Positions 8,149 through 19,616 of a DNA stretch of 25,624 nt are shown piece after piece; the first letter of the stretch is position 1; each line of letters starts with the position of its first letter. The DNA is from a virus: positions 1 to 25,624 of IMG/VR virus record IMGVR_UViG_3300030106_001688. One strand, 5' to 3'. Made by a program: the position numbers and the translations under genes. The notes under the pieces are model-generated. The model was given only the letters and a program-made list of their open reading frames with translations, made no database searches and was not told the DNA's origin.

Positions 8149-11040
8149 ATGGACACCAAACAGTTTCTTAGTACTGTATTGGGCGATGACGGGTATTATT
8201 GTGTAGCAGGAAAAAAGAAAGAAGGGTCGATGAATCAACAGTTCCACGACTCTTTAGATTCTGTTACTGGAGCCGCGAACGATTTTGATGAAGACGGGCA
8301 TGATGTTTATTTTGCGTTAGCTTCTTTTGTCGAAAAAAACCGCAAAGCTACAAACGTGCGGAGTTTGAAATCGTTATTCTTGGATATAGATTGCGGGGTA
8401 GATAAACCTTATCAGACTCAATCAGAAGCGTTAAAGGCATTACGAACGTTTCGGAAAGCGTACACCTTACCTCGTCCTTTTGTTATAAATTCAGGGCGCG
8501 GTCTGCATGTATACTGGGCGCTTGATAAATCTTACTCTCGTGATGAATGGGAGCCTGTAGCACAAACACTTAAAGCGACGTGTTTACAGGATGGTTTAGA
8601 AATAGATGCAGGTGTAACAGCGGATGCGGCTCGTTTACTTCGTGTGCCAGATACTCGTAATTTTAAAGGAGAGCAACCATTACCTGTAGCCGTTGTTTCC
8701 GAAGGGGAAGCAGGGGTAGATCTTGAGTTGTTTGCTAATAAACTCCCTAGCAGTTTAATACCAGTTCCCTCTAGTAGTAACTCTTCTAAGGAAGATCTGG
8801 AGGATATGGAACGAGCTAAAGGGTATGCAAACTACAGGTATAGGTTTGAGAACATTGTACTTAAAATAAAAGAGGGAGTAGGGTGCGCTCATATTGAAAG
8901 AGCTATACGTAACCCTAACGATTTAACTTATCCTGAATGGTTACACGTATTATCCATAGCCAAACGCTGTGACAAGGATGGGGTAGAGGAGGGAGTCTTA
9001 CCTGCGGTACATTTGATTTCTAAACTTGCTGATGCGTACGACTCAAAAGAAACACAAAAGATTTCTGATTCCATTAATGATCCGCATACGTGTGTTAGGT
9101 TTGATGAAGAGTATCCTAACTTGTGTGAGAATTGTCCACATAAGGGTGTAATAAAAAGTCCCGTCGCTTTATGCCGAGAAACAAGATTAGCCGAGGATGA
9201 TACACAGCTAATTCAACTTCCTGTAGAAATTAAAACTGAAGTAGAAGCAACAGGAGGGGTAAGTAAGGTAGAAGTAAAAGAGAGAAAGGTAACGATACCG
9301 GAGTATCCTCCATCTTATGAGAGACCTAAGAATGGTGGGGTGTTAAAGATCTCTAAAGATACTGAGGGTGGTACAAAAGAAGATCTTATTTTAGATAATA
9401 CTTTGTACTTATCGAAACGAATGATAGAAGGGGAAATACCTTCTTATGAAATAAGACATATTACTCCCCATGAAGGAGAACGTTCCTTCCTAGCAACACA
9501 AGCTGAATTAACTGCTAGAGAAAGCTTTCGTAATGTAATGAACTCACATGATGTATTAGTTATGAATGATAAAGTAAAAGGCGGTATGGATTACGTAGGG
9601 GCTTGGATGAAAAAGTTGAGGGATGCTGGTCCTGCAATCCACGTTAAGACACAATTCGGATGGACTGAATATCATAAATCTTTTGTGTTAGGGGATAAAG
9701 AAATATTCGCTGACACAGTTAAAGAGAATCCTGCGGGGATGCGAACAGCTCAATACATTCCTATGTTCAAACCGAAAGGGTCGTTAGAGGAATGGAAGAA
9801 ACTTGCTAGCTTTTATGACCAAGAAGGTTTTGAACAGCACCAATACATGTTTGGGTTAGCTTTTGGTTCTCCACTTATGGAGTTTATTTCTGGAGTGCAT
9901 GGCGCTATCTATAACTTGACAAGTACTGAAACGGGGATAGGTAAAACTACGGGGATGTGGGGAGGGGCATCTGTATGGGGTAACCATAAGCAATTAGTCC
10001 TTATCGGTAAAGATACTGATAATTCAGCGTGGAACCGAGCAGAGATAATGAAAAACCTTCCACTCTATGTAGACGAAGTGTCTAATTTTAAAGGAGAACA
10101 AGCGAGTGATTTTTGTTACTCCATCAGTGACGGAGTGCAGAGGAATCGTTTAACCAATGAAGGTCAAAACAAGGAGCGGTTTAGAGGGGAGGTATGGGAT
10201 TTAAGTTGTGGTACTACAGGCAATAGTAGTTTGATTCAGATAGCATCGGATTATAGATCGTCTCCCAAGGGAGAAGCGGGGCGGGTGGTAAGTGTTACGG
10301 CTAAGAAACTACTTAAAGGTGTAGAAGATACGTTACGGGCTAATGCACTTAATGATAAATTAGCTGCTAATTATGGATGGGCTGGACCGATTTTCATCCA
10401 ACATGTTATTAAACATAAAGGTGATGTTGAAAAACTTGTTCACGATACCCGTACTGCAATGATAAAAGAATTGAAGAGTGAGGCGCAGGACAGGTTTTGG
10501 GTAGCTCAAGGGACTACCACTTATGCAGGGTGTGTAATTGCTCACAAGATTGGACTTATAGACTGGAACTTAGAGGCTCTTTGGGATTGGATAATAAATA
10601 CCATACTTGCTCAGAAATATGGTTTACAGGAGATGGACATGGATATTAACGATGTAGTAGCTCAATTCTATATGGATAATGCCCGTGGGATATTGCGGAT
10701 TTCAAGTACCGCAGACGCGAGAGACCCGCATACTGGGGAGGCATTTGAGCATGTAGAGGCTAAAGATAACCCTAACCATAAGTTTATAGCTAGGCACGAA
10801 ACCGATACAAACAAACTTTACCTTCGCATCGCTCCTTTTAAAGAATGGTGTAGTAAACATAAATACGAATTCAATACGATAAAAAATATAATGGTGGCGC
10901 AAATGAATGGTAAGTCGGTAAAGAAACACATGGGTAAAGGGACTTTATATAAGATGGGGATGGCGCACGTACTGGAATGCACTCTCAATAACGATTTTGC
11001 TTTAGAGACAGGACTTTTAGATGAGGCTGAGTCGAAGTGA
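8149..11040 (+). CDS. Primase-helicase (AEP-type primase plus DUF927-like ATPase)
   Basis: The 963-residue two-part enzyme starts with an archaeo-eukaryotic primase-like domain. It has LFLDIDCG (D79, D81) and the NSGRGLHVYW strand with H120, the usual metal and nucleotide residues of AEP/PrimPol enzymes. A cysteine cluster follows (C315, C326, C329, C342; CX10CX2CX12C) that probably binds zinc. The C-terminal ATPase has Walker A TGIGKTT (K599) and Walker B LPLYVDEV (D642-E643), then a likely sensor segment with DLSCGTTGNSS, matching DUF927-type helicase domains. It would unwind the fork and make primers, and no DnaB-like helicase is seen elsewhere. The ribosome site is weak (AGG twelve bases upstream). 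The 3' end overlaps the next gene by 20 bp. Confidence 0.85.
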   Translation: MDTKQFLSTVLGDDGYYCVAGKKKEGSMNQQFHDSLDSVTGAANDFDEDGHDVYFALASFVEKNRKATNVRSLKSLFLDIDCGVDKPYQTQSEALKALRTFRKAYTLPRPFVINSGRGLHVYWALDKSYSRDEWEPVAQTLKATCLQDGLEIDAGVTADAARLLRVPDTRNFKGEQPLPVAVVSEGEAGVDLELFANKLPSSLIPVPSSSNSSKEDLEDMERAKGYANYRYRFENIVLKIKEGVGCAHIERAIRNPNDLTYPEWLHVLSIAKRCDKDGVEEGVLPAVHLISKLADAYDSKETQKISDSINDPHTCVRFDEEYPNLCENCPHKGVIKSPVALCRETRLAEDDTQLIQLPVEIKTEVEATGGVSKVEVKERKVTIPEYPPSYERPKNGGVLKISKDTEGGTKEDLILDNTLYLSKRMIEGEIPSYEIRHITPHEGERSFLATQAELTARESFRNVMNSHDVLVMNDKVKGGMDYVGAWMKKLRDAGPAIHVKTQFGWTEYHKSFVLGDKEIFADTVKENPAGMRTAQYIPMFKPKGSLEEWKKLASFYDQEGFEQHQYMFGLAFGSPLMEFISGVHGAIYNLTSTETGIGKTTGMWGGASVWGNHKQLVLIGKDTDNSAWNRAEIMKNLPLYVDEVSNFKGEQASDFCYSISDGVQRNRLTNEGQNKERFRGEVWDLSCGTTGNSSLIQIASDYRSSPKGEAGRVVSVTAKKLLKGVEDTLRANALNDKLAANYGWAGPIFIQHVIKHKGDVEKLVHDTRTAMIKELKSEAQDRFWVAQGTTTYAGCVIAHKIGLIDWNLEALWDWIINTILAQKYGLQEMDMDINDVVAQFYMDNARGILRISSTADARDPHTGEAFEHVEAKDNPNHKFIARHETDTNKLYLRIAPFKEWCSKHKYEFNTIKNIMVAQMNGKSVKKHMGKGTLYKMGMAHVLECTLNNDFALETGLLDEAESK

Positions 11041-11239
11041 TATTTCTCCTGACGGGGTAAGAATAATTATAGATTGGGATACTTTTGTCGTAGGGACTTC
11101 GATATTTATACCATGTGTAAACGCTAAACAAGCGATGAAAGATGTAGTATCGGCTAGTGGGTTAACAAGAAGTAACTTAATAAAACGAGTTTGTATAGAG
11201 AAAGGGAAGTATGGAGTACGTGTTTGGCGGGTTAGTTAA
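11021..11239 (+). CDS. Hypothetical 72-residue protein at the end of the replication block
   Basis: The 72-residue protein has a pattern IIIDWDTFVVGTSIFIPC, then a helical region, and a C-terminus KGKYGVRVWRVS. The IDWD..VG.S.FIPC and GKYGVRVWR segments look conserved in design, and I believe similar small proteins occur in other phages, but I know no function. The basic C-terminal half could bind nucleic acid. It starts inside the primase-helicase gene without a clear ribosome site, so translational coupling is likely. It is the last rightward gene, and its stop overlaps the end of the leftward virion block by 8 bases. Confidence 0.68.
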   Translation: MRLSRSDISPDGVRIIIDWDTFVVGTSIFIPCVNAKQAMKDVVSASGLTRSNLIKRVCIEKGKYGVRVWRVS

Positions 11240-14200
11240 AATCTTGATACTCTGCTCGTGATTCTAATAACATGTTTATGAAACGTTCATTAGTTACGTT
11301 ACCACCTAATATCTCTGCAATCTTTGAACCTCTAGCCCGTGTTTCAAGCGATTGCTGTAAGCTATCATCATCTATAGCCACGACACGATGCTTTTGATTA
11401 AAAGCTTTAATGTCTTTCTTTACTTCTTCTTTTCCAGCTTCGTCTTCATTACTATGAGCAAAAGCATACCTATCAAGTAACGCACTTCTCATATCTATTA
11501 TACCGTTCACTACGCGACGATCTCTCGCTAACCTATCCTGCGCTGCACGAAGTTCGGCAGGTCGGAAGCCTATAGCTTCTCTAATAGCATCCCCCACAGT
11601 AACATCTGAAATGATAGGGTCACCTCGTGTAGTTTCATAAGCTCCTGCCCCAAAGTTTCGTGTAGCCTTTTTAACATTAGAGAAAGCAGTGGGTAGTAGT
11701 CCTTCTATAGCTCGTTCATTATTTTTAGGATCATCATCCAAAAATAAACGGTATCCGTTTTCTCCTAGGCGGGTGGCTATACCTATTGTTGGGCCACCGT
11801 AGGTTTCTAACGCAGAACTTAAAAAGTCTTCATTACGATAGTTACCGGGGTCTCTCACTAACAAGTTAGTCAAAGCAATACGGTCAGTAACATCAACACC
11901 AAATTTTTCAGCTAACATCCCGTAGTACCAACCATCTCCTATTGTCTTAGCTACTATGGTATTAGCATCGTCTTCATCTTCGTCTAGGAATAGATTGGCA
12001 ACCGCCGCAGCTACTCCATAGAACGGAATACCTTTTGCTCCTACTAAAGCTCCCCCTACAAGGTTGGTGTATATAAAGGCACTCCGTAGCGCACGATCTT
12101 CTTCTATTTGTTCTGGTGTACGTGCAACTCCTCTAGCTTGTCGGGACATTGCTTTGAGCATACGCATCTGAATATACAATACTTGAGCAGGAAAACGTTT
12201 GAACTGATAGATCACCGCCCCCGCTCCAGTTTGCGCCCAGCGAGGAGCAGTAGCTAAGAGTGCTGAACTGTTAGCATATTCCATAAATTCAATAGCTGTC
12301 TTTGCGGCTTCTGGCCCGAACTGTGCTATTTCTGTTTCGGACATATCCTTTATTTTTTTAGTGGGTTTACCCTTGTTGGCTTCTGCATACGCTTTTTCTA
12401 CTTCTAAGATATACGAACTAGCCGCAGTAACTTGCCGGATAGCACGTTCAGAGTGGTTAAAAATAAAACTGGACACGTACGCCAACTTGTTAAGGAATGG
12501 GGCTGCTGGATTGTCATAGTCAGCGTTTTCTGAAGCGATAGTACGAGTGTCTAACCCTAGCTCCTGAAAACGCTCAACAAGAAACTTTAAAGGTCCACCT
12601 TCTTTGTTAGTAAAGCTAAACCCACCAAACTCCGATACATCACCTATCTCTCCTTGTGGAGTAATACCCTCCCGTGTGACATCTCCGAAAGATTGAGTGT
12701 ACATAGTCAGCGCACGGGCCATTGCCGAAGTTGCTTTAGCACCACCAAACTTACCGGATAAGAGTGGACCTACTATCATCGGTAGCGTAGACATGTTTAC
12801 CGCAGCAGAAGACACATTAAAACCTAGTGTATAGATAAAAGAACTTTGACGGAGCCTACGCGCCCAGTTGGGTAAGTTAGGATTTTTAACAAACTCCAGA
12901 TAACTTGGTAGCTTTCCTACCTGTCTGTTGGTTTCGTCTTTAGTTCCTACTAACGCTAATGAAATATCTCGCACCCAAGCACGGTCTCTACTATTTGCAT
13001 TGGCTGGTAAACTAGCTTCGTCTTTTATTTTATTAGCCGCATTGGTAAGGTCAACTTCATAAGATAAGTTAGTAAAACTATTAATCAGTTTAGGAAAAGC
13101 AGTTTCAAATGTTTTTAAAGCGTTGGTTTCATATCCAGCATACCCTTTACGTTGTTGATGCCCTTGCACTAAACCCTGTTCAGGAAGTGATTTCAGTAAG
13201 ACATCATTAACAAGTTCTATAGCCTGTTGTGGTATCTGAACTTCTCGCTGAGTTTCATTACCAGCAGTGTCGGTTTCTGTAATAGTGACTGGCTCTTTAA
13301 GAGAGTCCAATAGTTTTACTAGGAATGCTGTGGGGACATTAAACCCCTCCACCGACATATCAGGACGGGGTTTAGGTTTGATTGATCCTGTAACCACATT
13401 AGGGTTTTCCTCCAACCTTCTTATGGCGATCTTACGTTCGCCGGGAGTGGTATGTGCGCTTACGCCGTACTCAGTAGTGCCTTCAGGAGTTTTATATTCA
13501 AACTCTACCCAGTAGTCTCCTTCACGGTCTAGTTTAAAATAAGGCTCTATCGTCCCCGCACTAAGAATCTTTCTAAATGCTCTTTCTCTAACTGTCTCTT
13601 TAACTACTTCTTCTAACCCTAAACCATCTAATTTGTTGTCTATAGATTTCAGTATCTTTTGGTTCATGTTTTTGTACATATCTCGCATATCACGATATGC
13701 AGCTTGTTGTTGTGGACTCAAGCTATTGTACAGTTCACGCACCCGGTCATACTCAGTAACTCGTTCAGGAGTTGAGTTAAGTTTTTTAACTCCCGCAAGT
13801 ACGTTGGTGCGATCTAAAGCTTTAACCGCAGCGTCACGATCTGCTTCGGTTTTAAACGTAACGTTTTCTACAAACTCACCGTCCTTTCCAGTGTAGCTAT
13901 ATCCGAACTGTTCATAACGACTTTTGGGTTTAGTAGGGTCTACTTCTTCTATAGTACTGCGTCCCACTAACTCATTAAATATATCAACGGCTTTGCTATC
14001 TCTGCTAAACGCTGCCCTAAAATCTTTTAATTTGTTACTGAACTCTTTAGTAAGTTCGTTACGTGTTCCATCTTGTTTTTTAATAACTTCTTGAAGACCT
14101 CTAGCGGCTTCGTAAAAAGTTTGAAGGTCGGGGTTTGCTTTTACAAGGTCTACTAGATTATCTAAAGTCATTCCATTGATTAGGGTCATACGACTAGTAT

Positions 14201-17200
14201 CGTTATACTGCTCTGCTTTACCCCAAATAAAATCTCTTGCATCTTGTAAGGTTTTAATTTTAGCGAGTTTCGTACCTCCCGCTAACATTTGATGTACTGC
14301 ACGAGCTTCGTTATTGTTAGCGAGGTCTTGAGGTACAGTAGTCGCATTACGAGTATCTAACGACTCTGCTATGAGCGTGTTTATATAGTCTACTGCTTCC
14401 TGATCTTTCCCTTTAACAGAAACCGTAGGCATACCCAGTAAAGTTCTTATAGCGTTAGTGAAACGTTGCCATGCAGTTAGCTTAGAAGTAGTAGGTAATG
14501 CAGCTAAATCAGCTCTGAAAGAAGGGTTAGTGTAAGCTTCGGCAACAAAATCTTTTAACGTTTCTGTCCCGTAACTTTCCGGTAACTTGTTCTTAACTTC
14601 GTTAAACAACTTGGTCAACTGTTTAGTAACGGGGTGTGCGGGATTGTCCAACGTCTTAGAAGTAACTGCATGTGCTGCTTCATGTAATAGAGTGTGCGAG
14701 TTTAAAGGTTGTGCTAAATTTATTTCAATCTTGTTTTGTGCAGCGGTATAGTTACCCGCAAACTGATCCCCACGGGGGTTAGTTAGTCCGTCTACAAATT
14801 CGATACTTGTATCTTTTATGGCGTTAGCAAGAATACGTGCTGTCCTACGTATTTCACTGTTAGGAGTATCTATTGCTAATTGTTCTAATGCTCCTTTCAC
14901 ATCTCCATCTAATACTTTGTCATTAACCGTTTCCGAGACTAAAGGCATGGTAGCTGAGACAGCATCGGAACGCAGGTAGTCTACTACTCCCCCAAGATCC
15001 TCTAAGGTTGCACTTTCCAACCCATCCTGAGTAGCTACTACTTCTTCTAACACTTCTTCAGTTAACTTATCATCTTGTCTTTTTTCGCTTTTTACGTAGT
15101 TCCTGTCTAATTCTTCTTTTAACCGCTCATTTTCTAGCCTACGTTCATTTTGTTCTAACCAAGCTTCTGCGCTTAGTTCTTGGCGTTCATAGAAAGTTTG
15201 ATACTCTGTTAGTTTTTCATTAGCTTCAGGACTGAGATTTTTCTGTACCCATTGAGTAGCAGCTTTGGCACGACGTAATTCTTTTTGAGCTACATCTCCG
15301 GGGGATACTTGAGCCAATGTAAACGGGTAAGCGCCTTCAAAAGCTATAGTGCGAAGGGCTTGATCTGTGTCCGTAGTTGTCTGCATGTAATAAGATACCG
15401 ACGCGGCTGGAGTGTACTTATCTCTATTGGGGAGAGCTTTGTTTTTTCGTCTGGCTAACTTTGTTTCATCCGTATCAGGTAAGACAGCAACAGATACAGG
15501 AGGTTGCGGTGCAGTAGCTATTCTATTTGTTGGTGCGTCAGTAACTGTTTCAGTAGTAACTGTCTCGGTTGTTGTATCCACCGCAGGAGTAGGAACTACC
15601 CCTGTCTCTAAATAAGTTTTTATAGTTTCCCTAGTGTTTTTAGAGGCTTTTGGGTTGTTAGATAAAGTTGTTAGTGCTGCACGTACCTCATCGCTTCTTA
15701 CATCTTGGTTTTGCAGAGATTTCCGTTTACGGATAGGCGCACTAGGAGCAATATTTAAACTATCGAAAAAATCAGTTGTGGGTAAGATTTCGTTAGCTTT
15801 TCGTTCTTTCTCTAGCCGTACCGCTTCACGTCGTCGCGCTTTTGCTCCAGCTTCAGGGACTATAGATTCTAGGCCGCTCCCCTGTTCATCGACATCAGCT
15901 TTTGTTACTCCTTTTGCTTGTGCAACTTCGTAAGAACGTTGAGTGATTGCCTGTCGTTCAGTATCTGTGGGGGTAGTATTCCCTATACCTGCATCGGCTA
16001 AAGCTTTAGAAAACGCTTTTTCTGTATTAACCTGACTTGTCGTGTCGGTCTCAGCTAGGACTTTTGCTAGTATTGGCCCTCTTTTAGCTTGCGTTGTTTC
16101 TTCACGACTCTTATCTAAACGTTGTTGTACCTCTCTTAACTCAGCTTCAAACTGGGCTACTTCTGCTGCTTCTAACTTATCCGCTTTAGCTTTAGCTACC
16201 TTTGCTTTAGCTGCCTCTTCTTCAGCTTCTATTGCGGCGTACGCATCTTCATCTAATAACGCTTCTACTTGTTGAGTTTCTTCTAGGTCAGCAATTAAAT
16301 CGGTTTCTGGAGTGGGAGGTGTAGAGGCTGCTGTAGCGCGATTCCGTATTATGTCAGCTTCGGCTTCTACTGCTGCGTTAAATGCGTCAGGGCTAAGAGG
16401 TGCGTCACTGTACCGATCCCTTACGGTAGTTTCAGCTTGCTCCCTTATTTCTACTTCTATAGGGTCTTCTGCCGTTACCCCTGCAAGGTCTTCTACGTCC
16501 ATTAATTGTTCAGGTTCTGGACCTTGAAAAGTTTGTTCTGCCGCAGCCCTTTCTTCTGTTAAAAAGTCACGAGTTTCACCTACAGGAACTTGTGCCATTG
16601 CTGTTTCTGCCGCTTCAGCTTCGGCTTTAGTTATTGCGGCTTGTTCTTCTTCAGCAGCAGCTTCGGCTCTTCTAGCGGCGCGGCGTTGTTGGCCCGGAAT
16701 GATAGCTTCGGCAATACCTTGTAGAAGGCCACCCACTCCTGCACCCATACCAAAGGATTCACCAGTGTCAGTAAACACGCCGCGTTCTGGATCGTATATA
16801 CCACGCTGAATAAGATTCTGGCCTACTTCACTGATAGCCTCTTGGATACCTTCGTCAATAGCCGCTTTACCTACACGGCCTAACGGTGCTCTTTCCGTAG
16901 CTTGAGATATCTTTCGAATTATATTACCACTTAGTTCTTCGGCTACCTCATCGGCATTCTTACCTAAGACTTTCCTAAACCTGTTGACGATTCTAGCAGG
17001 ACCGAATATTTCCATTGCGCCCGGAATTGTACCTAACGCAGCGGCTTTACTTATCTCGTCTTCAGTAGCTCCTGCTGCTATAGCGCGTTGCGCTGCCTCT
17101 CCTGATCCTGCGGTAATACCTGTTAGCACTCCTGCGCCAATACCTATCGCACCAAAGGGAGCAGCCGCAAGGAACGGTAAGGTAGAACCCCCGGCTCTTA

Positions 17201-17585
17201 CAAAATCAAGATACTTACTGTCTTCATAGGCTTCACCGGGAGCAAGAGCTTCCTGTACTCCACTACCAATTTCAGCAATACGAGCACGAGCTGCTTGTTC
17301 GGCTTCTTCAGGAAGGATAAAAGATGCGCCTGTAGCCGCAGATTCTACGAGTCCCGCAGCTCCACCAAGAAGAGCCTTACCTGTTTCCAGCCCATACCCT
17401 AGTAATGAAGTTTCTTCTTCAGGTTCAGGTTCAGGTTCAGGAACAACAGGTTCGACAGGAGTGGGTTCAGGAGTGGTTTGACCTCGTAAATCTTTTATAG
17501 CGTCTGCAAGTTTTTGAGCAGCATAAGTATCTCCTGCGGCATGGGCATTTTTTAACGCACTACTCAGTTGCTCAATATCTGCCAC
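11232..17585 (-). CDS. Giant virion/ejection protein with metallopeptidase motif
   Basis: The 2117-residue protein has an N-terminal helical motif (residues 1-33, SALKNAHAAGD..AAQKLA) and a Pro/Glu-rich linker (38-58). Glycine/alanine hydrophobic segments (60-90, 132-162) and long Ala/Glu/Lys coiled coils (about 310-560) follow. LLHEAAHAV carries a zinc-binding HEXXH (H968, E969, H972), with a possible third ligand E1016 in FVAEAY, as in gluzincin-type proteases. The C-terminal part (about 1570-2100) with FNVSSAAVNMSTLPM and membrane-like stretches resembles the large polyvalent protein domain LPD38, from memory. Such proteins are carried in the capsid and injected with the DNA. It starts with GTG and has no good ribosome site, consistent with low copy number. 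It is the last gene of the leftward block. Confidence 0.85.
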   Translation of the reverse strand: MADIEQLSSALKNAHAAGDTYAAQKLADAIKDLRGQTTPEPTPVEPVVPEPEPEPEEETSLLGYGLETGKALLGGAAGLVESAATGASFILPEEAEQAARARIAEIGSGVQEALAPGEAYEDSKYLDFVRAGGSTLPFLAAAPFGAIGIGAGVLTGITAGSGEAAQRAIAAGATEDEISKAAALGTIPGAMEIFGPARIVNRFRKVLGKNADEVAEELSGNIIRKISQATERAPLGRVGKAAIDEGIQEAISEVGQNLIQRGIYDPERGVFTDTGESFGMGAGVGGLLQGIAEAIIPGQQRRAARRAEAAAEEEQAAITKAEAEAAETAMAQVPVGETRDFLTEERAAAEQTFQGPEPEQLMDVEDLAGVTAEDPIEVEIREQAETTVRDRYSDAPLSPDAFNAAVEAEADIIRNRATAASTPPTPETDLIADLEETQQVEALLDEDAYAAIEAEEEAAKAKVAKAKADKLEAAEVAQFEAELREVQQRLDKSREETTQAKRGPILAKVLAETDTTSQVNTEKAFSKALADAGIGNTTPTDTERQAITQRSYEVAQAKGVTKADVDEQGSGLESIVPEAGAKARRREAVRLEKERKANEILPTTDFFDSLNIAPSAPIRKRKSLQNQDVRSDEVRAALTTLSNNPKASKNTRETIKTYLETGVVPTPAVDTTTETVTTETVTDAPTNRIATAPQPPVSVAVLPDTDETKLARRKNKALPNRDKYTPAASVSYYMQTTTDTDQALRTIAFEGAYPFTLAQVSPGDVAQKELRRAKAATQWVQKNLSPEANEKLTEYQTFYERQELSAEAWLEQNERRLENERLKEELDRNYVKSEKRQDDKLTEEVLEEVVATQDGLESATLEDLGGVVDYLRSDAVSATMPLVSETVNDKVLDGDVKGALEQLAIDTPNSEIRRTARILANAIKDTSIEFVDGLTNPRGDQFAGNYTAAQNKIEINLAQPLNSHTLLHEAAHAVTSKTLDNPAHPVTKQLTKLFNEVKNKLPESYGTETLKDFVAEAYTNPSFRADLAALPTTSKLTAWQRFTNAIRTLLGMPTVSVKGKDQEAVDYINTLIAESLDTRNATTVPQDLANNNEARAVHQMLAGGTKLAKIKTLQDARDFIWGKAEQYNDTSRMTLINGMTLDNLVDLVKANPDLQTFYEAARGLQEVIKKQDGTRNELTKEFSNKLKDFRAAFSRDSKAVDIFNELVGRSTIEEVDPTKPKSRYEQFGYSYTGKDGEFVENVTFKTEADRDAAVKALDRTNVLAGVKKLNSTPERVTEYDRVRELYNSLSPQQQAAYRDMRDMYKNMNQKILKSIDNKLDGLGLEEVVKETVRERAFRKILSAGTIEPYFKLDREGDYWVEFEYKTPEGTTEYGVSAHTTPGERKIAIRRLEENPNVVTGSIKPKPRPDMSVEGFNVPTAFLVKLLDSLKEPVTITETDTAGNETQREVQIPQQAIELVNDVLLKSLPEQGLVQGHQQRKGYAGYETNALKTFETAFPKLINSFTNLSYEVDLTNAANKIKDEASLPANANSRDRAWVRDISLALVGTKDETNRQVGKLPSYLEFVKNPNLPNWARRLRQSSFIYTLGFNVSSAAVNMSTLPMIVGPLLSGKFGGAKATSAMARALTMYTQSFGDVTREGITPQGEIGDVSEFGGFSFTNKEGGPLKFLVERFQELGLDTRTIASENADYDNPAAPFLNKLAYVSSFIFNHSERAIRQVTAASSYILEVEKAYAEANKGKPTKKIKDMSETEIAQFGPEAAKTAIEFMEYANSSALLATAPRWAQTGAGAVIYQFKRFPAQVLYIQMRMLKAMSRQARGVARTPEQIEEDRALRSAFIYTNLVGGALVGAKGIPFYGVAAAVANLFLDEDEDDANTIVAKTIGDGWYYGMLAEKFGVDVTDRIALTNLLVRDPGNYRNEDFLSSALETYGGPTIGIATRLGENGYRLFLDDDPKNNERAIEGLLPTAFSNVKKATRNFGAGAYETTRGDPIISDVTVGDAIREAIGFRPAELRAAQDRLARDRRVVNGIIDMRSALLDRYAFAHSNEDEAGKEEVKKDIKAFNQKHRVVAIDDDSLQQSLETRARGSKIAEILGGNVTNERFINMLLESRAEYQDFN

Positions 17586-17590
17586 GTTTT

Positions 17591-17614
17591 TATTGCTCTA
17601 GTTATATTGCTCTA
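17591..17614. repeat. 10-bp direct repeat at the junction before the giant gene
   Basis: TATTGCTCTA occurs at 17591-17600 and again at 17605-17614. It spans the stop codon of the 672-residue gene and the spacer before the GTG start of the giant gene, where no Shine-Dalgarno sequence is visible. Part of it encodes the last residues of the upstream protein, so the repeat may be coincidental. Confidence 0.4.
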
Positions 17615-19616
17615 ATATCGCTTCAAGTTCAGGATCTTCACTACCACTTCCAACACCTAGTATTTGATTTTTTGCAGCAGTATAGGCTTTGTTAAGGCTG
17701 TTTATTGTGCTTTGTTTTGTAGCCTCATCCATCGTAAAATCTCCATTTACTTCCGCTATAGCTTCTGCAATATCTACACCTATTTTTGCAATACTCTCAT
17801 CTACTCTACGTTGATACTCTTTATTGTCTCTAATGTTTAATCCTTTTTCTCGTAGCTTTGCTAACTCGCTAGACGCTTGAGTAGTAAGAGCAGTTATACT
17901 AGTCCTTGCATTTTGTATAGCCGCTGAAGTCGCACTGGACGCTTCTACATTACTAAGGTTAGCTAGACTTTGTAGGGCAGTATTCATCTCCGCCGAGAAA
18001 GTCTTAGCTAGTTCAGTACCTGCCCCAAACGCTTTCTCTCTGGCAGCTCTATCCATTCCTAATGTCTCTAGCTCTGAAGCAATCGGGAGAAGTGCTTTTT
18101 CTGCTTCTATGTCCCTGACCCTCTTATCAAACGCTGTTCGTGCAGCAGCACCTCTATTGCCAGCTCCGATGATACCTCCCGGTCCTGAAAGGTTACCTAA
18201 GATAGAGTTTATCTTTTGCTGTCTCAATACTTCTGGGTCTAACTCGGCAGCTAACGCTTGAGTCTGTGTATCAGCCGCTTGTTGCCTTAATGCTCTTTCC
18301 CTATCAGAAAGACCATAAAAATCTAAAGCATCCTGTCTACGTTGCTTTTCTTCATCAGTACGGTCTCTTCCTAAAGCATCTTCAGCGTACTCTGACACAA
18401 TCTCTGTTAAAGCTGATTTACCGGGTTCAACATCAATTTCGTTTATGCGAGTTACAATATCCTCAACTACGTCCGAGGTCTCGCCATTGGTTGTAGGATT
18501 TCCCTCACCACCCGGTAGATCTGAACCCTCTTTAAGATATTCTGTACCCACTGTTTCAACCGCATCCCCATCTGAATCACTACGGGTAACTAACTGGCCA
18601 CCAAGGATTAATTCATCCGAAGGAGCACTTTCACCCAAAACATAGCTAAGAGCCTCATCTAAATTTGCCCCTTGACCTATTAGAGAAGAGTACGCTTGTG
18701 CTTGATCGACGGTTAAATTTCTTAAAGCATCACGTCTTGCTTCTTGTGCTTGTTCGGCAGCAGCTCGTTCTGCGTAAAATTGACTTGCCGTTGAACTATA
18801 AGGCACTACGTCACCATACCTACCTGTGGAAATTATTTCCTCATCTACTACGCTTCCATCAGGTCCAGCAAAAGCTACAATCCCACCGCCAGCCATACCT
18901 TGAGATGTCGTTGTTCCCTCATACGAGCGTATAGCTTCTTCAATTCTTTGTATTTCTTCAGCGGATGCGCCTTGAGCAATGCGTGTTTCTTTAAGGTCTC
19001 TAAGATATTGTAAATGTTGTTCAGGGGTCATCCCTTCTGTAGGGGAACTAAATTGTCCTGAGAAAAACCCTCTTGCTCTATCTAGTAAAGACTTCTTTTC
19101 CTCCACTTCAGTACCTTGAGCAAACCCAACAATCCCGCCTTGTGCAGCTTTTACCATATTAGGAGCTGGCATACCTGCTACGCCTTGCATAGGTGGGCGT
19201 ACAGAAGATTGTTGTCCTGCCATAGGTGGACGCTGTTGAGGCATCATAGGTGGACGTGGTTGACCCATCATAGGAGGACGCGGTTGACCCATCATAGGTG
19301 GCCGTGGCTGGCCCATCATAGGACGCGGTGGAGTGCTTTGTTGTACACGAGCTAATGCTCCTGCTATTCCATCTAATGCTTGTTGTTGTCTTTGTTGTAA
19401 GACTGTAGCGGAGGTGGGTTTCCCAGCTTGTGCTAGTAACTGATCCGCACTATCAATTAAGTTAGTAGCTTCCTGTATGTTAAGAGCTGCCTCTGTTGCA
19501 GGAGGGAGACCTAATGCTTCTAATCCTTCGCTCGACACTAGTTCAGAAGCCGCTGCCATACGAGGGTTCTGTTGTGCGGCTGAACTGGCTATTTGTAAAT
19601 CTGCTATTCCGGTCAT
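17598..19616 (-). CDS. Probable internal virion protein with Pro/Met repeats
   Basis: The 672-residue protein is rich in Ala, Gln and Glu with long helical regions. It carries a tandem repeat MMGQPRPP (about residues 100-130) and two copies of a G-G-I-V-x-F-A motif, AAQGGIVGFAQG at about 157-168 and AGGGIVAFAGP at about 240-250. Toward the C-terminus there are amphipathic helices (residues about 440-640) such as ALRQQAADTQTQALAAEL. No enzyme motif or signal peptide is visible. Its position between the 318-residue protein and the giant ejection protein suggests an internal or ejection protein that exits the capsid with the DNA. A strong GGTGGGA ribosome site lies seven bases before the ATG. 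Function is inferred from context. Confidence 0.72.
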   Translation of the reverse strand: MTGIADLQIASSAAQQNPRMAAASELVSSEGLEALGLPPATEAALNIQEATNLIDSADQLLAQAGKPTSATVLQQRQQQALDGIAGALARVQQSTPPRPMMGQPRPPMMGQPRPPMMGQPRPPMMPQQRPPMAGQQSSVRPPMQGVAGMPAPNMVKAAQGGIVGFAQGTEVEEKKSLLDRARGFFSGQFSSPTEGMTPEQHLQYLRDLKETRIAQGASAEEIQRIEEAIRSYEGTTTSQGMAGGGIVAFAGPDGSVVDEEIISTGRYGDVVPYSSTASQFYAERAAAEQAQEARRDALRNLTVDQAQAYSSLIGQGANLDEALSYVLGESAPSDELILGGQLVTRSDSDGDAVETVGTEYLKEGSDLPGGEGNPTTNGETSDVVEDIVTRINEIDVEPGKSALTEIVSEYAEDALGRDRTDEEKQRRQDALDFYGLSDRERALRQQAADTQTQALAAELDPEVLRQQKINSILGNLSGPGGIIGAGNRGAAARTAFDKRVRDIEAEKALLPIASELETLGMDRAAREKAFGAGTELAKTFSAEMNTALQSLANLSNVEASSATSAAIQNARTSITALTTQASSELAKLREKGLNIRDNKEYQRRVDESIAKIGVDIAEAIAEVNGDFTMDEATKQSTINSLNKAYTAAKNQILGVGSGSEDPELEAILEQYN
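19242..19313. repeat. 24-bp tandem repeat (3 units) encoding MMGQPRPP
   Basis: Three adjacent 24-bp units start CATCATAGG and differ at a few positions; a fourth partial unit begins at 19314. They encode tandem MMGQPRPP in the 672-residue virion protein. The units are in frame, so copy number can change without breaking the gene. Confidence 0.85.

Follow-up and report, generated by a model that had tools for sequence, protein, structure and literature searches.

A strongly conserved zincin-like metallopeptidase domain in a giant, probably ejected protein of an uncultured aquatic tailed phage

The window examined here, a stretch of 25,624 nucleotides from an uncultured aquatic tailed phage, encodes a giant protein with a short HExxH motif near its middle, and the question that this locus raises is whether the motif marks a genuine zinc protease domain and, if so, on what such a domain could act. 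A sequence-only reading had described a leftward open reading frame of 2117 residues in which H968, E969 and H972, together with E1016, would form a metallopeptidase site, and this reading frame is indeed present, with each of the four residues at the position given (Table 1). The segment HTLLHEAAHAVT comprises H964, H968, E969 and H972; given the composition of the protein (11 histidines among 2117 residues), the number of HExxH motifs expected by chance is 0.005. Homologs of about 2000-2400 aa are encoded in many viral contigs, and one scan of genome contigs found no relative.

Table 1. Positions of the giant protein, its domains and candidate active-site residues, and the neighbouring genes in the window
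Feature	Position	Strand	Basis
Giant protein, 2117 aa, final gene of the leftward structural operon	11232..17585	-	ORF, GTG start
N-terminal region, residues 60-300, conserved, rich in Gly and Ala; a single segment (135-159) is strongly hydrophobic	16686..17408	-	Block conservation and hydropathy
Linker, residues 301-870, low-complexity, variable	14976..16685	-	Column conservation
Zincin-like metallopeptidase domain, residues 876-1060	14406..14960	-	AlphaFold2, VIA-align to N4 gp50 C1, hhalign to N4 family, conservation
H964, near-invariant, four residues before HEAAH	14694..14696	-	77/77; 107/115
HEAAH motif, H968-H972	14670..14684	-	HExxH kept in 48/49 ORFs fetched by C-terminal patterns
Y1005, putative catalytic tyrosine	14571..14573	-	111/115; M34-like spacing to D1012 (7 residues)
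D1012, likely third zinc ligand	14550..14552	-	D/E in 114/115; aligned with E of N4 gp50, 9sfn_G and PhiM1 gp48
E1016, ligand of the sequence-only reading, more likely second shell	14538..14540	-	E/D in 114/115 close homologs
LPD39 domain, residues 1159-1320	13626..14111	-	Pfam PF18858, E 3e-9, above cut-off
PLxRFG C-terminal domain, residues 1348-2090	11316..13544	-	NCBIfam NF032893, E 2.3e-65
ORF of 72 aa, flanked by the DUF927/primase gene and the giant gene	11021-11239	+	8-base overlap with the end of the giant gene
Gene of 672 aa, upstream; product probably co-ejected, placed like T7 gp15 / N4 gp51	17598..19616	-	Function inferred from position
Probable DNA ejection protein, 318 aa	19620..20576	-	PHROG 4287 'DNA ejection protein', E 1.8e-9

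The first relatives of the giant protein were fetched with patterns of which the HExxH motif was no part; HExxH is present in all those whose sequence covers the region, and H968, E969, H972, D1012 and E1016 are conserved. When the set was widened to 77 distinct sequences, H964, H968, E969, H972 and E1016 proved invariant and, within this set, the histidines are kept in all sequences fetched by a downstream pattern only, as is E1016 in all six fetched by HExxH only. Moreover, among 49 ORFs that were selected by C-terminal patterns alone and have 400 aa or more ahead of the match, 48 contain HExxH at a distance of 283-363 residues upstream of the C-terminal match. Such retention in homologs picked without the motif exceeds chance conservation and indicates that the motif is real; as the sequence-only reading would have it, the histidines and the glutamates are not freely lost. 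The presence of HExxH in all members of a set of 115 homologs results from the way in which they were selected and is not counted as evidence. The exception among the 49 ORFs (L141) has other sequence at the place of the zincin, and the motifs of L142, L146/L179 and L150, all counted among the 48, are divergent and may belong to other zincin clades. L150 has a different segment, of the HELAH type, in place of the usual zincin. The ORF of another locus, L157, starts shortly ahead of the domain; its HExxH is missing although the downstream EFASEALTN is retained, which has the look of a disrupted reading frame or an assembly error. Across 48 full-length sequences, residues 1001-1025, downstream of the motif, form the best-conserved block of the whole protein.

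The AlphaFold2 model of residues 865-1110, for which 15 sequences were used as input, has a pLDDT of 72 overall and 84-95 in most core blocks. Its elements (in model numbering) are a helix (46-58), three strands (63-67, 80-83 and 88-92), the HExxH helix (99-115) and two further helices (121-136 and 146-155), the last of which bears both D1012 and E1016, so the order typical of zincins, namely, helix, three strands, HExxH helix and acidic helix, is found in the model. A Foldseek search with this model retrieved nothing at an E-value of 0.001 or better, the top rows being lethal-factor-type zincins with E-values of 0.2-0.7. In the VIA-align comparison, the best match was to residues 2124-2366 of N4 gp50 (Z 7.8, 170 residues, rmsd 4.2), a score that is middling by the scale of this program yet clear of the next row, the SprT-like protease 6mdx (Z 5.4), which was followed by lethal-factor-type zincins near Z 4.4. 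Residues 2124-2375 of N4 gp50 make up its C1 domain, with a conserved HExxH (PMC12633501), and hhalign linked the zincin region to the N4 C-terminal domain with a probability of 96.9 and an E-value of 2e-10, with the HExxH motifs aligned. Scans of Pfam, PHROG and NCBIfam yielded no peptidase name for the giant protein and, in particular, no Pfam peptidase family scored above its cut-off, which counts against a peptidase. Taken together, the element order, the top match to the C1 domain of the N4 vRNAP and the conserved motif support a strongly conserved metallopeptidase domain of the zincin type, of a kind known from other giant injected phage proteins, and the zinc-protease domain is very probably real.

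Apart from the HExxH helix, a zincin site requires a downstream acid, and both candidates lie within the segment YGTETLKDFVAE at residues 1005-1016. In the 115 close homologs, positions 1012 and 1016 are each acidic in 114, position 1012 being E in 101 and D in 13. Position 1016, chosen for the third ligand in the sequence-only reading, is thus acidic among close homologs, but in distant ejection proteins, it is W, Q or Y. Profile alignments place the invariant E of the NEFMAW motif of N4-type proteins opposite D1012 and its W opposite E1016; KELVAW of 9sfn_G and HEFISQ of PhiM1 gp48 fall in the same register, with the acid at 1012, and EELGAY of the Klebsiella phage SopranoGao protein, with Y at 1016, fits this register by eye. 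Because position 1012 is E in these distant relatives whereas position 1016 varies, D1012 appears likelier than E1016 to be the third zinc ligand, with E1016 in the second shell. In M34-type zincins, the catalytic tyrosine lies seven residues ahead of the glutamate ligand, the same distance as that from Y1005 to D1012. The window protein has an aspartate at position 1012 instead of the commoner glutamate, which counts against an active zincin. All in all, judging from its residues, the domain is most likely catalytically competent.

The sequence-only reading also placed the motif between coiled coils and a C-terminal membrane-like region, and this was only partly right: residues 300-870 form a variable low-complexity linker (column conservation mostly 0.15-0.4 over 48 full-length sequences), and the sole strongly hydrophobic stretch of the protein, at 135-159 (Kyte-Doolittle 1.8), is N-terminal, whereas the same scan found no C-terminal segment above 1.4. 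Downstream of the zincin, LPD39 is present in 29 of 29 diverse family members; this domain was rated potentially enzymatic in 2017 (PMC5512222), so the zincin may be tied to a second, uncharacterised catalytic domain. The PLxRFG part scores 221 bits against a cut-off of 100 for NF032893, which places the protein in this family, and has a PHROG DarB-like match (E 2e-34); other DarB-like giants end in the same C-terminal block. The AlphaFold model of residues 1100-2117 reached a pLDDT of only 62, too poor for its PDB matches to carry meaning; the C-terminal alignment (n=18) was too diverse to serve as a search query. A YQFKRF segment at residues 1783-1804 weakly resembles residues 1097-1118 of T7 gp16 (hhalign E 0.13), a likeness that may be due to chance or to a common C-terminal element.

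The gene neighbourhood points to a role in ejection. A homolog of the 672-aa gene lies directly upstream of the giant gene in the closest loci, with gaps of -7 to 17 bases; a search of eight large contigs for the 672-aa protein, run without a positive control, gave no match. On the other side, downstream of the giant gene and converging on it, the 72-aa ORF, which has homologs in 86 related loci, is kept in 76 loci and a 963-aa DUF927/primase gene in 78. Gene order and homology together suggest that the giant protein is probably located in the virion and ejected from it.

Zincins in giant injected phage proteins are not without precedent, and the giant protein joins these. Zincin-like metallopeptidase (MPTase) domains in polyvalent proteins were described in 2017 (Iyer et al., PMC5512222), and no domain is commoner in polyvalent phage proteins than the zincin (PMC5512222). 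With LPD39 above its cut-off and the MPTase domain recognised by profile and fold, the window protein can be classified as a polyvalent protein, its transfer into the host being predicted from homology and context. Like other such proteins (PMC5512222), it is a giant multidomain protein in which an acidic helix comes after the HExxH zincin, with an LPD39 domain, a structural-gene context and predicted delivery but, unlike them, it has no detected domain of the methylase, helicase, ART or polymerase type; in this clade of uncultured aquatic phages, nothing in the protein is recognisable as a domain besides the zincin, LPD39 and PLxRFG. It shares with the 4369-aa PLxRFG protein of SopranoGao the C-terminal 800-900 residues, made up of LPD39 plus PLxRFG (hhalign E 2e-74), and the SopranoGao protein also has an HExxH about 200 residues upstream; however, the window protein is half as long, and within the comparisons made, the N-terminal half shows no relationship. 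Among cultured phages, the best match to the zincin part itself comes from Rhizobium phage RHph_TM27A, in a protein of 2307 aa.

The similarity in layout to N4 gp50 (9pnt; PMC12633501) extends over a hydrophobic NTD, a linker, the C1 zincin and a large, mostly helical C-terminal part, and in both cases the gene closes the structural block and adjoins those for co-ejected proteins, although the profile comparison linked the C1 zincin only and detected no homology to N4 C2. Unlike N4 gp50, the giant protein lacks an RNA polymerase domain: its Pfam hits include no polymerase family, and beyond the NTD, linker, zincin and C-terminal domains, there is no room for one. A search for RNA_pol in eight related contigs, run without a positive control, had no hit. 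Identification as an N4-type vRNAP was rejected, as no single-subunit RNA polymerase was found. Homologous HExxH domains are also present in two T7-gp16-class ejection proteins with solved structures, PhiM1 gp48 (L123:2198-5989; 8vb2, PMC11440229) and the internal virion protein PDB 9sfn_G (profile E-values of 0.0024 and 4e-6, respectively), but these proteins are shorter (1263 and 1337 aa), have E1016 replaced and show no PLxRFG match in the profile search. The position of PhiM1 gp48, a tetrameric ejection protein, in the virion core has been solved (PMC11440229), and the words 'peptidase' and 'protease' are absent from the text of that paper (PMC11440229). T7 gp16 itself, compared by hhalign as a single sequence, gave no zincin match.

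The reading that we consider reasonably probable is that the giant protein is the largest ejection protein of this phage, a PLxRFG/LPD39 polyvalent protein with an active zincin that cuts its own chain or co-ejected proteins. Its architecture, that is, a hydrophobic N-terminal region, flexible linker, zincin, LPD39 and PLxRFG, would amount to that of N4 gp50 without the polymerase. Zinc would be held by H968, H972 and D1012, E969 would serve as the general base and Y1005 as the transition-state stabiliser, and E1016 and H964 would support the site. Probably, the protein is packaged and ejected along with the 672-aa and 318-aa proteins, and the peptidase would act during or after delivery, the likeliest substrate being its own chain, for instance, the linker, with release of the LPD39-PLxRFG part, or else a co-ejected protein. 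The length of the linker makes self-cleavage plausible, and the complete active site favours an enzyme. Polyvalent zincins have been proposed either to process themselves, before delivery or after it, or to act on proteins of the host (PMC5512222); on the other hand, the N4 gp50/vRNAP, which has the same domain, is packaged uncut (PMC5512222), and this counts against self-processing.

Three other readings have to be weighed against cleavage of phage proteins. The zincin could act after ejection on a host protein involved in defence, the envelope or takeover, which we regard as possible but doubtful. That the entire active site is so strictly conserved is in keeping with selection on an enzyme, host-directed cleavage has been named as a possibility (PMC5512222), and a kinship with effector-type metallopeptidases is apparent from weak matches of homologs to the Pfam families Tox-MPTase4, ATLF and DUF6782; yet nothing points to a host target, and the domain is kept clade-wide, with little of the rapid change of an arms-race effector. 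The stronger version, an ejected active zinc protease that works at the first step of infection on a specific host target and is conserved across a large clade of uncultured aquatic phages, seems unlikely. Conservation also bears on the idea of a pseudo-peptidase whose role, structural or regulatory, would lie in packaging or in folding the C-terminal part, with HExxH kept for stability of the fold or the metal site. Encapsidation in N4 requires the C-terminal part (PMC5512222), which also acts as a repressor of the polymerase (PMC12633501); moreover, position 1016 is lost in N4, 9sfn_G and PhiM1 gp48, and N4 has no tyrosine at the Y1005 spacing. In the present clade, however, H968, E969, H972, D/E1012, Y1005 and E1016 are all kept with hardly an exception, and a purely structural metal site has no need of E969 or Y1005, so we judge inactivation, too, to be improbable. 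Finally, it is very hard to credit that the HExxH domain belongs to an alpha-ketoglutarate-dependent HExxH oxygenase or another metal enzyme that is not a peptidase: domains of this oxygenase type are known, but the one in the VIA-align list, 8s5f (Z 3.3), ranks far below N4 C1, the SprT-like protease and the lethal-factor-type zincins.

Three papers on such proteins (PMC5512222, PMC12633501, PMC11440229) report neither an activity nor a substrate for a polyvalent zincin. Unlike N4 or PhiM1, the clade described here keeps every active-site residue and is thus well suited to asking whether ejected zincins are enzymes.
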